The notes below the pieces were generated by a model. That model saw nothing but the letters and a program-made list of their open reading frames with translations, was not told the DNA's origin and searched no databases. A stretch of DNA of 34,202 bases from Clostridiales bacterium (GTDB lineage Bacteria > Bacillota > Clostridia > Lachnospirales > WRAX01), in the NCBI GenBank assembly GCA_031277225.1, contig JAITMQ010000017.1:1-34202 (forward strand). Direction: 5' to 3'. Made by a program: the position numbers and the translations under genes. Positions 25,946 through 32,605 of the stretch are shown here, one piece after another; position 1 is the first letter of the stretch; each line of letters starts with the position of its first letter.

Positions 25946-26805
25946 TTGAGTTATCTTATGAATGTGGTGGATGGGCTTCAGAAGCAAAAAATAGACTTTG
26001 TAGAAAACCTTTTGGATTCAGACATTATGGTTTACAGCGGGTCTTTGGATGATAGTGCAATTTATCCTTTCATTCACCTTTTGGAGAGGCGGGATAAGAA
26101 GCGCGAAAAGCTGTCAATCATTTTGACCACCAATGGCGGTAGTGCTACCGTTGTGGAGCGTATGGTTTATGCTATACGACATCACTACAACGAAGTAGAG
26201 TTCTATATTCCGGACTATGCCTACAGTGCAGGTACGATTTTCTGCATGAGTGGCGACAAAATACATATGACTTATAGTAGTGCACTTGGGCCAATAGACC
26301 CTCAAGTCAAAAACAAAGATGGCAGATGGGTTCCCGCCCTTGGGTATTTGGACAAATTTGCAGAATTAATCGGTTTGGCAAGGTCGGGAAAAATAAGCGA
26401 AGCAGAGTTTCTTATTTTGCGGGAATTTGATATGGCTGAAATCCATGCCTATGAGAAAGCGCGAGACTTAACGGTTGACCTTCTAAAAAATGGCTTGTGG
26501 AATATAAATTTAAACCTTGGAAAGTTCATTCACAAACAGGAAAGGAGGTTACGCCGGAAACGAAGTCCAAAAGGGCCGAGGAAATCGCTAAAAAATTGGG
26601 TGATACTAATATTTGGCTTTCTCACTCGCGCCCCATTAACATACAGCGCTTAAGGGAGGAATTGCGCTTGCAAATTGAGGATTACAGCCAAAACCGTGAG
26701 GTGTACGCAGAGATACAAGGTTATTATCAAATGTTGCGGGATTATATTTCGCAAAATAAGATAAAGATATATATGCACACGGTAAATGGGAGGGTTAGCT
26801 TATGA
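25946..26805 (+). CDS. SDH_sah-type (ClpP/SppA-fold) serine protease, split by a -1 frame change
   Basis: The product resembles the serine dehydrogenase proteinase family (Pfam SDH_sah), cytosolic relatives of SppA and ClpP; the substrate is unknown. Fold motifs are visible: TTNGGSATVVERMVYAI (oxyanion-side Gly-Gly), YAYSAGTIFCMSGD with the likely nucleophile Ser, and SSALGPIDPQV. The start is a TTG at 25946, 10 nt after GGAGG. The first frame leaves family-like sequence after VDLLK and stops at 26653. The family-like C-terminus (WLVEYKFKPW, AEEIAKKLGDTNIWLSHSRP) continues in the -1 frame to 26805. The switch falls on six A's at 26485-26490. A joined product would be about 286 aa. It may be a true broken gene, a slippage-dependent gene or a sequence error. 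The end overlaps the next start by 4 nt. Confidence 0.8.
26485..26491 (+). other. Slippery heptamer A AAA AAT at the frame change
   Basis: In the protease zero frame the codons are CTA AAA AAT GGC. The heptamer A AAA AAT fits the X XXY YYZ rule for -1 ribosomal slippage, and slipping gives AAA AAA TGG, which enters the frame carrying the conserved C-terminus. The new frame is closed upstream by a TGA at 26476-26478, so the switch must lie in 26479-26491. I see no strong downstream hairpin. A one-base deletion from an A7 run explains it equally well. Confidence 0.55.
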
Positions 26806-27108: not shown

Positions 27109-28080
27109 ATGAATAATCGACAAAAAATTAGGCGCAGACGGCGCAGGCTGAATAAGGGATTCCGCAGATTTTTAGGCCTTATGGCCTTTTTGGTGCTGGG
27201 CGCGGTTTTGTATTTCGCAATTTCGGCGGCGCTCGGCGGGGAGGACGCGCCGCCTGCGGGCGGAAGCGTTGCGACCGGCGTTGATGTCGGCAATTTGCGC
27301 ATTTATCACGACCACGCCGCGCTAAATTACGCAATTCATTATAATGACCCGAATCAGACCTTTAGAATTTTTGACCCGGAAGGATTCGTGAACGACACGA
27401 TTTTTAACCCGCGCAATCGCACCATAAGCCTACATACCGATTTACCTATAATTGTGGATATTCGCAACGGCGAAGGTGATTATACGCATGTCCATGTGAT
27501 TAGCCCGCGAGAATTTTATGACAGGATTATAGTTATAGACCCCGGCCACGGCGGTGCAGACCAAGGCGCGCCCGCACCCGGCGGTGCGCTGGAATCCCAA
27601 ATTGTGTTGGAAATTTCCCTGCTCCTTTATGACCTCTTCGAGCAGTCAAACAGCGGAATTAGGGCATTTATGACCCGCTTCGACGACGATTTTGTTACGC
27701 TTGCGCGCCGCTCTCGTTTTGCAAATGGCGTGGGGCATTTGTTTGTTTCCATACATACAAATACATATGCAGACCCCGCAGTCGCAGGCACGGAAACGCT
27801 CTATAACCCGGCCTCAAACCCCCTAAACGCCGCCTTTGCGCAAATTATTCAAGACGGCCTTGTTGCAGAGCTTGGCACGCGCGACCGCGGCATAATCAAT
27901 CGTCAAGACCTCTATGTCCTAAACACGACAACAATTCCCGCCGCCGTGGTGGAAGTCGACTTTAAAACCAATCCGCAGGCTCTAATTAATTTGCAAAATC
28001 GGGAATATCAGCAGAGAGTGGCCGAAGCCCTTTACCAAGCCATAGTCGAGGCCGCAGCACGGCTTGATATTTCGCAATAA
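27109..28080 (+). CDS. Membrane-anchored N-acetylmuramoyl-L-alanine amidase (Amidase_3, 323 aa)
   Basis: This zinc enzyme cuts the bond between N-acetylmuramic acid and the stem peptide in peptidoglycan. A very basic N-terminus (RRRRRR) precedes one membrane segment at about residues 22-43, placing the enzyme outside the cell. Residues ~60-135 form a small extracellular domain without a clear name. The Amidase_3 domain follows with VIDPGHGGADQG (zinc His), a Glu in GALESQIVLEISLLL, FVSIHTN (zinc His) and the catalytic Glu region VVEVDFKTNPQAL. The length fits the family. The start has no ribosome site and sits just after a -10 box; the next in-frame ATG (27181) also lacks one and would cut into the membrane segment. 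It is monocistronic and probably acts in cell separation or wall turnover. Confidence 0.93.
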   Translation: MNNRQKIRRRRRRLNKGFRRFLGLMAFLVLGAVLYFAISAALGGEDAPPAGGSVATGVDVGNLRIYHDHAALNYAIHYNDPNQTFRIFDPEGFVNDTIFNPRNRTISLHTDLPIIVDIRNGEGDYTHVHVISPREFYDRIIVIDPGHGGADQGAPAPGGALESQIVLEISLLLYDLFEQSNSGIRAFMTRFDDDFVTLARRSRFANGVGHLFVSIHTNTYADPAVAGTETLYNPASNPLNAAFAQIIQDGLVAELGTRDRGIINRQDLYVLNTTTIPAAVVEVDFKTNPQALINLQNREYQQRVAEALYQAIVEAAARLDISQ

Positions 28081-28111
28081 ATGTGCTAAAATATAATCGG
28101 AGGTGTTGATT

Positions 28112-28384
28112 ATGTTAAGAAAAATCGAAAATCGGGAGATTATGACCCTAAGAGAAGCGAGGGAAAAGTACAGCAATAATTGGTTTTTCATGGTTACCAC
28201 ACAGGAAGTGGACACAGCGTATGAAGATTTGGGATATGTCGTTTACATTGGCGATTCTCAAGATGACTTGTCAACAATTGACAGAGAAGAATTTTTCGCA
28301 CAAGGCAAGGACGTTTGCACCGCCTTTGGTCGCAATGTGGATTGGCCGCCATATGGTTCGGGGAGGGTAGTATACTATGATTAA
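28112..28384 (+). CDS. Small hypothetical protein (90 aa), first gene of the retropepsin cassette
   Basis: I do not recognise a named family. The protein is soluble and mixed alpha/beta in appearance (MTLREAREKYSNNWFFMVTT, then a negatively charged centre and a Pro/Gly end, WPPYGSGRVVYYD). There is no signal peptide. The ATG at 28112 lies 8 nt after GGAGG; GTG and TTG codons just upstream (28103, 28106) are within or too close to that site. Its 3' end overlaps the retropepsin-like gene by 8 nt, so the two are probably translated together and may interact. Composition is A+T-rich compared with the amidase gene just before it, which suggests the cassette arrived separately. Confidence 0.8.
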   Translation: MLRKIENREIMTLREAREKYSNNWFFMVTTQEVDTAYEDLGYVVYIGDSQDDLSTIDREEFFAQGKDVCTAFGRNVDWPPYGSGRVVYYD

Positions 28385-28850
28385 AATCGGATTTGGAGAG
28401 CGCGATAAAGTTTTAGTGCCAATAAAATTTAAGCCGAGGAAATGGGCGGCTCTTGGTGGGAAGGACATATTTTTGGTCGATACCGGCGCAGACTTTTCTG
28501 CAATTTCCAAAAATACGCTTTATAAGCTCGGTTATGACTATAATTGGATAAAAGATAATCTAATTCGGGTAGAGGGGCGCGTTGGTACGGCAATCCACAG
28601 ATATGGTGAGGAAGGAATAGAGGCTCCTTATATCCAATTGCCCTTGATTAAGGTTTTGGGACGGGAAATTAGGAATTTTCCTTTCAGGCTCATAGAGAGC
28701 AAAGAGGCGGATTTTAACAATCTTTTGGGCAGGGATTTATTGTCCGGCTTCAATTATTGCTTCAACAACGACGAAAAAGCATTTTCAGCCGAACAAACAA
28801 AAAATTTCGCGCCCGCAAGGTCGTTTTGGGGTGGGTTGGAGATATGGTGA
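28377..28850 (+). CDS. Retropepsin-like (clan AA) aspartic protease domain protein (157 aa)
   Basis: The protein carries the signature of a single-domain clan AA aspartic protease. There is a beta-strand FLVDTGADFSAIS with the catalytic Asp-Thr-Gly at residues 35-37, and a later hydrophobic-Gly-Arg-Asp motif, NNLLGRDLLSGFNY, like the ILGRDFL segment of retropepsins. Such enzymes act as dimers, so one DTG per chain is expected. No membrane or signal segment is seen, so it is cytosolic, and the substrate is unknown. GGAGG lies 10 nt before the ATG. The start overlaps the 90-aa gene by 8 nt and the end overlaps the kinase gene by 7 nt, which indicates a tightly coupled unit. Confidence 0.82.
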   Translation: MIKIGFGERDKVLVPIKFKPRKWAALGGKDIFLVDTGADFSAISKNTLYKLGYDYNWIKDNLIRVEGRVGTAIHRYGEEGIEAPYIQLPLIKVLGREIRNFPFRLIESKEADFNNLLGRDLLSGFNYCFNNDEKAFSAEQTKNFAPARSFWGGLEIW

Positions 28851-29407
28851 TTTTGATTGGCGGGGCTTCCCACACGGGCAAAACCCTTATGGCGCAACGC
28901 TTGCTTGAAAAATATAAATATCCCTATCTTTCAATTGACCATCTGAAAATGGGGCTATATCGCGCAAATATCGGCTGCGGTTTTACGCCGCTTGACAGCG
29001 CGGAATTCATAGGGGAAAAGCTATGGCCCGTCCTAAAGGGCATTATTATGACCAATATTGAAAATAATCAAAATATCATAATCGAGGGCTGCTATATTTT
29101 GCCGCAAAAGGTGCTTGAGCTTGAGGATGGCTATCTCAACAGGGTAATTCCGCTATTTTTAGGCTTTTCGCAAGACTATGTCGAGAAGTTTTTTCAAACG
29201 AAAATCCTTCGCCACCGAAACATCATCGAATCGAGGGCCCATGACGATGATATGGCAATAAATGAATATGTAAAAGATAACAAAAAGCAAAAAGAGCATT
29301 GCCTTCTCGCAAATATGCAATATTTCGAGATAACCGCCGACTATGAAGCAGAAATGCGTGATGTATATATTTGGATTGACAAAGAGTTGAGCAAAAGGAG
29401 GTGTTGA
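28844..29407 (+). CDS. P-loop kinase / nucleotide-binding protein (187 aa)
   Basis: The N-terminus is a Walker A motif (LIGGASHTGKT, residues 4-14) on the first beta-strand of a P-loop kinase fold, followed by a YLSIDHLK strand and IIIEGCYILP. This is the layout of small kinases such as 2-phosphoglycerate kinase-like, zeta toxin-like and AAA_33-type proteins. The substrate cannot be told from the sequence. The ATG at 28844 fits the start of the fold. The open frame extends upstream to 28757, but that part only translates the retropepsin gene out of frame. It overlaps that gene by 7 nt and ends one base before the Phd antitoxin start, whose ribosome site lies inside this gene. Confidence 0.83.
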   Translation: MVILIGGASHTGKTLMAQRLLEKYKYPYLSIDHLKMGLYRANIGCGFTPLDSAEFIGEKLWPVLKGIIMTNIENNQNIIIEGCYILPQKVLELEDGYLNRVIPLFLGFSQDYVEKFFQTKILRHRNIIESRAHDDDMAINEYVKDNKKQKEHCLLANMQYFEITADYEAEMRDVYIWIDKELSKRRC

Positions 29408-29408
29408 G

Positions 29409-29702
29409 ATGACTTTGATTAGACCTGTTTCAGATTTAAAAGATAATCTTGCAGAGATTTCGAAAACGGTACATGAAGCGGCTCAACCTGTCTTTCTTAC
29501 CAAAGATGGTTACGGCAATATGGTTGTTTTAAGCATGGAAACTTACCAAAATATGCAATTTGACGCTGCGGTTTACTATAAATTGTTAGAGGCGGAGCGG
29601 GAAATTGAGCAAACGGATAAAAGATATTCGTCCGAGGAGGCGCTTGAGGCCATGCTAAATAGTCCTCAAGTTGCCAATAATTTGGCGCATAAGATAATTT
29701 AA
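29409..29702 (+). CDS. Phd/YefM-family antitoxin (97 aa), without an intact toxin
   Basis: Phd/YefM antitoxins bind DNA with an N-terminal domain to repress their own operon and neutralise a RelE/ParE or Doc toxin with a C-terminal tail. Family features are clear: RPVSDLKDNLAEISKTV, the QPVFLTKDGYGNMVVLSMETY strand and a charged helical tail. Its ribosome site (AGGAGG) lies at the end of the kinase gene and the ATG is one base after that gene's stop. The usual toxin gene should follow directly, but only a fragment of it remains. The antitoxin is therefore an orphan, possibly kept as a repressor or an anti-addiction factor. Confidence 0.92.
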   Translation: MTLIRPVSDLKDNLAEISKTVHEAAQPVFLTKDGYGNMVVLSMETYQNMQFDAAVYYKLLEAEREIEQTDKRYSSEEALEAMLNSPQVANNLAHKII

Positions 29703-29800
29703 AGAACTATATTATGTTTTACTTAATTGATGAAGAAAATAAATTGATAACAATCGCAAGGGTAATCTATTCCCGCCGGGACTATGGAAAGCTTCTGTGA
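29702..29800 (+). pseudogene. C-terminal remnant of a RelE/ParE-type toxin gene
   Basis: Right after the Phd stop, one frame reads KNY-I-MFYLIDEENK, LITIARVIYSRRDYGKLL and then stop. The ending (FY-[DE]EENK, then an I-R-x-Y-[GS]-RRDY-x-x-LL pattern) is characteristic of the last strands of RelE/ParE toxins. The first two thirds of the toxin, about 65-70 residues, are missing, and an in-frame stop lies just upstream (29690-29692). A 28-codon frame from ATG 29714 remains but has no ribosome site. It is best read as a deletion that inactivated the toxin. Confidence 0.78.
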
Positions 29801-30604: not shown

Positions 30605-30636
30605 AAAGGCTTGTTGCTACGCTTTTGAGTATTCTG

Positions 30637-31275
30637 ATGGATGTCGATGGTAAGAAGGTTAATATTGAGATTCAAAATCGCAATGAGGGGAATTTTCCGG
30701 AGAGGGTTTTGTTTCATTGGGCTAAAATCTACTCGGCTTCTCTCCCCGAAGGTGAGAATTATATCAGCCTGCCGCAGACTATAATTATTAGTATACTTGA
30801 TTTTAAGATGTTCGAATGTGAAGAAGTTCATTCGGAATTTAAGTTGCTGGAAACAAAGCGGCACGAATTGCTGTCAAATAAGCAGATTTATCACTTTTTT
30901 GAATTGCAAAAGCTTAAGGATTTGGATCAGCTAGACTTGGAGAGCGAAAAAGACTTGTGGCTGGCATTATTCAATGCTAAAACCGAAGAAGAATTGGAGA
31001 AGTTAGCATTAAATGGAGGTGAAGTCATGGTTCAAGCTGTGGAAGCTTATAAAAGCGTAACCGCAACGGAGGAATTCAGAAATTTAGAATGGCTCAGAAC
31101 GAAGACGGCGCATGACGAGGCTTCGGCGATTGGGAATGCGGAGAGGCGTGGCGCGGAAAGCGAGCGTCGAAAGTGGCAAGGAGTTGTTGCAGAAAAAGAT
31201 ATAGCCCTTGCCAATGAAAGAGCAGAAGTCGAAAAACTCCGCAGGCAACTCGCCGCCCTACAGGCCAGAAATTAG
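30637..31275 (+). pseudogene. Rpn-family PD-(D/E)XK nuclease, 5'-truncated (212 aa left)
   Basis: Rpn proteins (PDDEXK_2 family) are DNA nucleases that promote recombination or act as toxins and defence factors. The retained part includes VNIEIQNRNEGNF (the E-x-Q catalytic strand), the FHWAKIYS helix, IIISILDFKMF, and a coiled-coil tail with MVQAVEAYKS, EWLRTKTAHDEASAIGNAERR and KLRRQLAAL. About 70-80 residues usually found before the first catalytic strand are missing. The position of the first catalytic Asp reads S in LLSILMD, and homology starts only ~25 bp after the tatD stop. The first usable ATG (30637) has no ribosome site. It is probably inactive as a nuclease, although the tail could still be made from an internal start. 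Confidence 0.78.
31015..31029 (+). promoter_or_regulatory. Internal ribosome site and start inside the Rpn gene
   Basis: GGAGGTG (31015-31021) is followed at ideal spacing by an in-frame ATG (31027-31029). It would give a separate 82-aa C-terminal product, MVQAVEAYKS to QARN. In Escherichia coli, Rpn genes make short C-terminal products from internal starts that restrain the long form. The same site and start are copied ahead of the next gene. Confidence 0.68.
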
Positions 31276-31285
31276 GGGTGAAATT

Positions 31286-31519
31286 ATGGTTCAGGCTGTG
31301 GAAGCTTATAAAAGTGTACCCGCTACAGAGGCATTTAGAAACCTTGAATGGCTAAGGATGAAAACGGCGCATGATGAGGCTTCGGCGATTGGGAATGCGG
31401 AGAGGCGGGGGGAAGCACGGGCGAATGAGAGATGGCGGGGCGTGGCGGTTGAAAATGAGAAGCTTCTCGAAGAAAACGAAAAGCTTCGTAAGCAACTCGC
31501 CGCCCTGCAAGGCAGATAA
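31286..31519 (+). CDS. Stand-alone Rpn C-terminal tail protein (77 aa), tandem duplicate
   Basis: This small gene is a duplicate of the last ~82 codons of the Rpn gene. MVQAVEAYKS, FRNLEWLR, KTAHDEASAIGNAERR and the ending KQLAALQ match nearly residue for residue, while the coiled-coil middle has diverged (ENEKLLEENEKLRK). The duplicated DNA begins at the ribosome site: copy 1 has GGAGGTGAAGTCATG and copy 2 has AGGGGTGAAATTATG, overlapping the stop of copy 1. The product is a soluble helical, coiled-coil protein without a nuclease core. It may be a free-standing version of the short Rpn product (antitoxin-like), or a leftover of unequal recombination. A strong terminator follows. Confidence 0.75.
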   Translation: MVQAVEAYKSVPATEAFRNLEWLRMKTAHDEASAIGNAERRGEARANERWRGVAVENEKLLEENEKLRKQLAALQGR

Positions 31520-31626: not shown

Positions 31627-32556
31627 TTATACACAAGCCGACAAGTATCCCAGCCGCAATTCTAAAAGCCGGATATAAAACTGCTTTTGAATTGCGGGCA
31701 TGACCGCCAAATTGCCGTGGGTTTCCGGAATTTTTTGGATTAGTTCTTTTATTGCCTTCAGATTGACGGCATTTAAAAAGCGCAAAAGAGCGGCCTTGCA
31801 GTCGGGGTCATTGGTGTTTTTGATATAGTCGAAAGGGTTTATTTTAATGCCTTCGTTGTCAATACCTTTATACTTATACACACAAAGTTGCGTCTTATAT
31901 GCGTCTTCTTCCATTGCAACAGAATCAGCCAACCGCTTTTCCATTTGCGCAAGGCTTCTTTTGTTAAAAAATGCGTTTCCGTTGTCGTAAATCGGTGCTA
32001 GTTTCTTTCCGCTAAAAGGCTCCAGCAATAGACCCCAGTTTTCGTTATTACGGTCATTATTACCTATAAAAGCGTCAACGACAAACATATCCCAAAACCG
32101 TTCCAAAACCCCCGGAATACTACTTAAAGTTGCTTCGCCCTTCACCGTGGCAAGCACTTCATCCAAAAAAGTTTCAGAACCTGTTCCTGAAAAATTGTCA
32201 AGGTCGCTCGCCATGAAGCTGTTCTTTAAATTATGAAAATGTATCAAAAAAAAATTTTGGACCATGAGATTCGTCATGTCATACCTTAAAAAATCTTTAC
32301 AAGCAACAACCACTTTACCCTGACGCACACCAAGCAAGGTTTCATGAACCGGAATCCCTAGTGTTTCATAAACCTTAGAGCCTATAAATTCACTTAAAGG
32401 GCTTGTTGTATACGACATCTGCGGATTTTTCATATCCCTTGTCGTTTTCGGATATTTTAGCATCCAAACAGCGTCGTCATAAAGCACGGCTTCCTTTGCG
32501 CCCGCATTTCCGCCATAATAAACAGCCACAATTTTTATTTCATTGAAATCCACCAC
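31627..32556 (-). CDS. HipA/CtkA-like serine-threonine kinase, no HipB partner (309 aa)
   Basis: HipA-type kinases phosphorylate serine or threonine on cytosolic targets; HipA itself is a toxin, and CtkA of Helicobacter is a stand-alone relative. Visible are a Lys on a WMLKYPK strand (residue ~34, ATP contact), the catalytic loop FIGNNDRNNENWG (Asp168, Asn173) and the metal-binding LAPIYDNGNAF (Asp191). It lacks the ~100-residue HipA N-terminal domain, and no helix-turn-helix HipB gene is adjacent. The GTG at 32556, 8 nt after GGAGG, is chosen because an upstream TTG (32577) lies inside the -10 box and an ATG (32571) lies at the expected transcription start. It is more A+T-rich than the MATE gene it diverges from. 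Confidence 0.85.
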   Translation of the reverse strand: MVDFNEIKIVAVYYGGNAGAKEAVLYDDAVWMLKYPKTTRDMKNPQMSYTTSPLSEFIGSKVYETLGIPVHETLLGVRQGKVVVACKDFLRYDMTNLMVQNFFLIHFHNLKNSFMASDLDNFSGTGSETFLDEVLATVKGEATLSSIPGVLERFWDMFVVDAFIGNNDRNNENWGLLLEPFSGKKLAPIYDNGNAFFNKRSLAQMEKRLADSVAMEEDAYKTQLCVYKYKGIDNEGIKINPFDYIKNTNDPDCKAALLRFLNAVNLKAIKELIQKIPETHGNLAVMPAIQKQFYIRLLELRLGYLSACV

Positions 32557-32576
32557 AAAAACCACCTCCATCCCCA

Positions 32577-32605
32577 ATTATACCCAAAATTCCCCCGCTT
32601 GTAAA
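32577..32605 (-). promoter_or_regulatory. Promoter of the HipA-like kinase gene
   Basis: On the minus strand TTTACA (32605-32600) and TATAAT (32582-32577) are 17 bp apart. Transcription would begin near 32570, leaving a leader of about 14 nt with GGAGG before the GTG start. It is arranged back to back with the MATE promoter, the -35 boxes being 11 bp apart. Confidence 0.82.

Follow-up and report, generated by a model that had tools for sequence, protein, structure and literature searches.

Four short genes that follow one another on one strand of a Clostridiales contig raise the question of whether all of them act together or whether only some belong to a functional unit. The window (i.e. the whole 34,202-nt stretch of DNA that was analysed) is contig 48 of a fragmented metagenome-assembled genome (MAG) of 2.16 Mb in 177 contigs, with 94.6% completeness and 1.9% contamination. 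The source genome is that of a gut bacterium and is a Defluviitaleaceae-type MAG, the closest named relatives found being Defluviitaleaceae MAGs (i.e. the Co191 and Lab288 bins), which we take from their bin names to be termite-gut MAGs. Gene neighbourhoods were inferred from open reading frames, mechanically and by eye. The four genes were found where the first-pass annotation had placed them, with overlaps of 8 nt between the 90-aa and retropepsin genes and 7 nt between the retropepsin and kinase genes, and with a 1-nt gap between the kinase and Phd genes (Table 1). Shine-Dalgarno-like sequences are present 5' of the starts, three of them within the preceding gene as had been described; that the products are made in fixed proportion, as was also stated, is not established by overlap in itself. 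The cassette is indeed more A+T-rich than the flanking amidase and tatD genes (GC of 0.39-0.43 versus 0.51-0.54; i.e. 0.425, 0.424, 0.415 and 0.391 for the four genes in order, 0.512 for the amidase and 0.537 for tatD). An empty-site comparison of the amidase-tatD junction found relatives to be without an amidase before tatD. The promoter-like sequence in front of the first gene is compatible with, and no proof of, a promoter serving the first two genes. The reading favoured here, with moderate confidence, is that the functional unit is a two-gene pair (28112-28850), one of 18 diverged and dispersed copies and a divergent relative of the PDC-M08 candidate system, in which the small partner would regulate the protease.

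Table 1. Coordinates of features in the window and the basis of their assignment
Feature	Position	Strand	Basis and details
Promoter-like sequence, TTGATA-17-TAAAAT	28064..28092	+	Consensus scan, 10/12 matches, TG extension; 19 bases 5' of first pair gene
Small partner protein, 90 aa, PDC-M08A-like	28112..28384	+	ORF, profile hits, hhalign to PDC-M08A
Single-domain retropepsin-like aspartic protease, 157 aa	28377..28850	+	PF13650/PF13975; DTGAD at residue 35, LLGRD at 116-120
P-loop kinase, 187 aa, bystander	28844..29407	+	Single copy in genome; homologues away from pair
Phd/YefM antitoxin, 97 aa, bystander	29409..29702	+	PF02604, E 4e-10; sole copy in genome
ParE/RelE toxin C-terminal remnant	29702..29800	+	PF05016 positions 63-89 of 89, E 0.0024; ATG 29714, stop 29798-29800
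ORF of 7387 aa	141..22304	-	Many divergent InlB B-repeats (PF18998); S-layer homology domain near C-terminal end
ClpP-like SDH-type serine protease	25946..26805	+	PF01972; runs into overlapping ORF in another frame (26497-26805)
PD-(D/E)XK transposase-family nuclease	30607..31519	+	PF12784; C-terminal segment repeated in ORF directly downstream
HipA-like kinase	31627..32577	-	PF07804, E 1.7e-7

Association of the protease with a small upstream gene was examined across the source genome and its relatives. A protease profile search identified 18 retropepsins in the source genome, and each of them (18/18) has a small same-strand gene of 74-102 codons directly upstream, in most cases overlapping the protease gene by 4-32 nt. 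The small-protein profile gave 12 matches besides the 90-aa protein, and seven further diverged small partners were located beside other retropepsins; two pairs missed by the automatic overlap rule (L015 and L016) were read by eye. Protease matches in relatives were paired in 17 of 19 cases, the exceptions being one fragment and one 376-aa protein, and all ten loci in named Defluviitaleaceae genomes were paired. In one MAG, contigs WQSR01000045 and WQSR01000036 (L060 and L061) share what seems to be the same 6.4-kb stretch, representing either a recent duplication or assembly redundancy.

None of the 18 retropepsins stands alone, whereas two small genes do so (C163 and C166, i.e. on contigs 163 and 166); beside these no retropepsin remnant was detected. 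At two further loci of the source genome (L149 and L153, on contigs 105 and 138) there are two small-partner genes in tandem ahead of one retropepsin gene. An asymmetry of this kind would be predicted for a small protein that restrains its protease. Divergence among the copies is high, identity to the window protein being 19-51%, and the small partners form subfamilies matching those of the proteases. Distance matrices for partners and proteases were correlated over the 18 paralogous pairs (Mantel r 0.87, p 1e-4), indicating that partners are not freely swapped; this co-divergence is a mark of co-inheritance and not of binding, as the same result is obtained when two genes duplicate together and their products do not interact physically.

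Profile searches place the window protease among the clan AA retropepsins. Its match to PF13650 was above the cutoff (24.9 bits versus 24.3), in keeping with its first description as a single-domain aspartic protease with a DTGAD motif, while the match to PF13975 was just below (28.1 versus 28.2), and profile matches in the PDB were obtained to APRc/ApRick, Ddi1 and FIV protease. The single-domain form is shared with other clan AA proteases (i.e. APRc/RC1339, the ApRick protease; Ddi1; RimB; RloA). All 18 proteases retain the D[T/S]G and hydrophobic-hydrophobic-Gly motifs in a single domain of ~100 residues, and no membrane-length hydrophobic segment was detected in any of them or in the partner proteins; with the catalytic motifs kept and no membrane segment, the proteases look active and cytosolic. 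The AlphaFold monomer model of the window retropepsin was poor (pLDDT 40). The 90-aa protein exhibited no significant match in Pfam, NCBIfam or the PDB but gave a confident model of a compact alpha/beta protein (pLDDT 86, pTM 0.77), for which a fold search retrieved nothing from the PDB or a viral library at E 0.001.

A related gene pair is listed in PADLOC-DB 2.0.0 as the phage defence candidate PDC-M08, consisting of a small protein (PDC-M08A) and a retropepsin (PDC-M08B). PDCs are unvalidated PADLOC candidates, which PMC12988326 traces to the guilt-by-embedding screen of Payne et al. 2024. A search for PDC-M08 by name found no paper among those covered, and its role in defence is therefore that of an unproven candidate. 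The PDC-M08B models matched the window protease weakly (E 0.0063, PDLC04402) and several of the source-genome paralogues strongly (down to 3e-10). The PDC-M08A model gave no direct match to the window 90-aa protein and weak matches to single members of the source-genome family (E 0.039, 0.0055 and 0.0088). Alignment of the small family with PDC-M08A by hhalign produced a probability of 91.6% and a score of 35.4 over the first ~50 residues, whereas none of 200 column-shuffled profiles scored above 20.8 and a reversed profile reached a probability of 0.4%. Two bridging partners (L152 and L154) were matched by both the small-family and PDC-M08A profiles. On profile evidence, the small family of the source genome is homologous to PDC-M08A.

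The gene arrangement is likewise that of PDC-M08, in which a small ~85-aa protein comes first and a single-domain retropepsin second with a short overlap; the A-then-B order, adjacent on one strand, holds for 18/18 pairs in the source genome. The window pair differs in the divergence of its small protein, which is so great that PDC-M08A does not match it directly, and in its protease, which carries a C-terminal tail and is longer (157 versus about 125 aa); the source genome differs in having 18 copies. PDC-M08A was present in 33 of 398 genomes of the phylum. Under an automatic rule, a retropepsin gene comes right after 16 of 29 PDC-M08A genes, the usual overlap being 4 nt; among the remaining genes are some at contig ends, some fragments and at least one true pair that the rule missed (L089, recognised by eye). 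That some PDC-M08A genes are alone or fragmentary counts against the favoured explanation, as do the weak scores of the window pair itself on the PDC-M08 models. PDC-M08 pairs were also found on an Alicyclobacillus plasmid and in the Clostridioides phage phiCDIF1296T. More distantly related small proteins, resembling DUF5678 (PF18929), precede retropepsins in the same order, with a 4-nt overlap or near-abutment, in a genome of the same phylum (G231; L043 and L065) and on cyanobacterial plasmids (L081, L082, L084 and L085). Assignment of the 90-aa protein to DUF5678 was rejected as, unlike these proteins, nothing in the source genome matched PF18929 even at E 10; the comparison of DUF5678 with the small-family profile was weak (21%), though one distant pair forms a bridge to DUF5678.

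The strict pairing and co-inheritance of protease and partner point to a relation of regulator and protease. The small alpha/beta protein would be translated first, as the cognate partner of the protease, and may bind it, with the flap or the dimer interface as conceivable sites, keeping it inactive or setting its target. Phage infection, stress or a similar trigger would free the protease dimer, which could then cleave intracellular proteins and elicit a toxin-antitoxin-like or abortive-infection response. The gene arrangement is that of a toxin-antitoxin module (i.e. a leading small gene overlapped by the gene for an effector that, in the source genome, does not occur without it). An antitoxin-toxin pattern is suggested by the leading position of the partner, the occurrence of lone partners only, the tandem partners and the plausible harmfulness of a free cytosolic endopeptidase. 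Physical binding, inhibition, toxicity and defence are properties that we infer for the pair from this pattern, and phage defence, addiction and stress control would look alike in the sequence. The more specific proposal of a toxin-antitoxin or abortive-infection system, with the retropepsin as a toxin held by its small partner and the 18 possibly partner-specific versions forming an insulated protease arsenal, is tentative.

The distribution and composition of the pairs bear on their mobility. The pairs are dispersed among housekeeping genes (i.e. pyrH and frr, ksgA, recR, folD and prfB, with names read from translations); recognisable defence islands were not seen around them, which counts against the favoured explanation. 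For 17 of the 18 pairs the GC content is lower than in the flanking sequence (mean -6.6 points). The small-protein profile had matches in 5 of 58 relatives and in 3 of the 398 genomes sampled from the phylum, and the protease profile in 9 of 58 relatives. Patchy, multiple, low-GC pairs fit horizontal acquisition, and from these features the pair module was probably acquired horizontally, low GC alone being insufficient as proof. Scans of viral contigs for the window's own pair subfamily detected no relatives, a further point against the favoured explanation, and a plasmid search with the 90-aa small protein produced no match. The earlier suggestion of a mobile stress or defence module is hence retained for the two-gene pair, which is patchy, multi-copy, low in GC and related to PDC-M08, and not for the four-gene set.

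The dispersed copies, low GC and lone small genes, together with related pairs on plasmids and in phage, would also be produced by a multi-copy module that is selfish or accessory and has no role in defence, e.g. an addiction element kept on plasmids and phages that has accumulated in this lineage. The combination of high divergence between copies and retention of active-site motifs argues instead that function has long been under selection and that the spread is not recent, making a purely selfish module rather unlikely. The chief rival to regulation by the small partner is that the retropepsin has a housekeeping role in processing, comparable to that of RimB, which trims C-terminal glutamates, and that the small protein is a substrate or adaptor and not an inhibitor. 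Precedents exist in RimB and RloA, bacterial retropepsins of known function that are described in the available text of PMC12239564 as regulatory processing enzymes in operons, and the retention of the catalytic motif in all copies would accord with such a role. The same text places RimB in a rim operon with RimK and assigns signal peptides to RloA proteases, and in that portion mentions no small PDC-M08A-like partner for either; no RimK-type gene was seen beside the window pair. A housekeeping enzyme is a poor fit to absence from most relatives and low GC, and the 18 diverged copies and patchy distribution make this role less likely, though not impossible; we judge it unlikely overall.

Joint action of protease, kinase and antitoxin in a single four-gene stress or defence system, as the first-pass annotation had proposed, would account for the contiguity, overlaps, shared strand and common low GC of the cassette. 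The neighbourhood survey speaks against this proposal, as a kinase or Phd gene was found beside 0/17 other pairs in the source genome and 0/10 in named Defluviitaleaceae genomes. Fifteen kinase homologues were identified in 14 of 96 relatives, and in the 14 loci that were read the neighbourhoods were unrelated and no pair was present. At the other loci surveyed, homologues of the pair never adjoin the kinase or an antitoxin, an outcome that the annotation itself had named as contrary to its proposal; its alternative of chance stacking of modules proved to be right. This lack of co-occurrence in the source genome and relatives refutes a conserved four-gene system, and joint action of the four genes at this locus is very improbable.

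The kinase and the Phd gene with its toxin remnant are bystanders outside the two-gene module. The kinase has matches to both of the types to which it had been likened, each of them below the cutoff (2-phosphoglycerate kinase, E 4e-4; zeta toxin PF06414, E 0.011, 15.6 bits versus a cutoff of 22.3). A zeta-epsilon toxin-antitoxin assignment was rejected on the basis of this sub-cutoff match, the lack of an epsilon-type antitoxin gene beside the kinase, and the neighbours of the kinase in relatives, which are unrelated or GNAT genes. Several kinase homologues adjoin a GNAT acetyltransferase gene and one is fused to such a domain in a 336-aa protein (L068 in G040, L070, L071 and L074), a linkage that hints at modification of small molecules by the kinase and not at toxin activity. 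The only toxin-antitoxin-like neighbour noticed among the homologues was a RelB/RelE-like pair, read from translations, just upstream of the kinase at L079 (952-1433 of the oriented locus).

The fourth gene is the Phd antitoxin that had been reported, and the annotation had missed the toxin remnant downstream of it (29702-29797). Only the last ~28 residues of this toxin survive, about the first two thirds being missing, and no intact toxin gene lies next to Phd. As a ParE/RelE C-terminus directly follows, Phd is the half that survives from a type II toxin-antitoxin locus whose toxin gene has decayed. The locus resembles Phd/YefM-ParE/RelE systems in gene order but differs from them in the truncation of the toxin; it is unrelated to the two-gene pair, and a toxin of its own for Phd is a further point against a four-gene system. 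The HipA-like kinase gene of the window is near this decayed locus and the transposase-family gene. Elsewhere in the window, the 7387-aa ORF is by its domains a giant surface protein, and the overlap at the PF01972 ORF suggests a frameshift or sequencing error. Finally, their shortness and lack of Pfam matches might imply that the small genes are spurious, or that they adjoin real proteases by chance; this reading is refuted and verges on the impossible given their conservation across 13 copies and several genomes, the confident AlphaFold model, the profile homology to PDC-M08A and the co-divergence with the protease.

Retropepsins of this class are widespread and little characterised in bacteria, and cytosolic representatives of known function are few. 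The rule of one small upstream partner for each retropepsin leads to the testable idea that the partner is a cognate inhibitor or specificity factor. The PDC-M08 candidate pair was known before; the pair described here is a variant that is strikingly expanded (18 copies in one genome) and extends this unvalidated defence candidate to diverged forms that are missed by current HMMs. The source genome thereby supplies 18 natural variants with which partner specificity may be tested.
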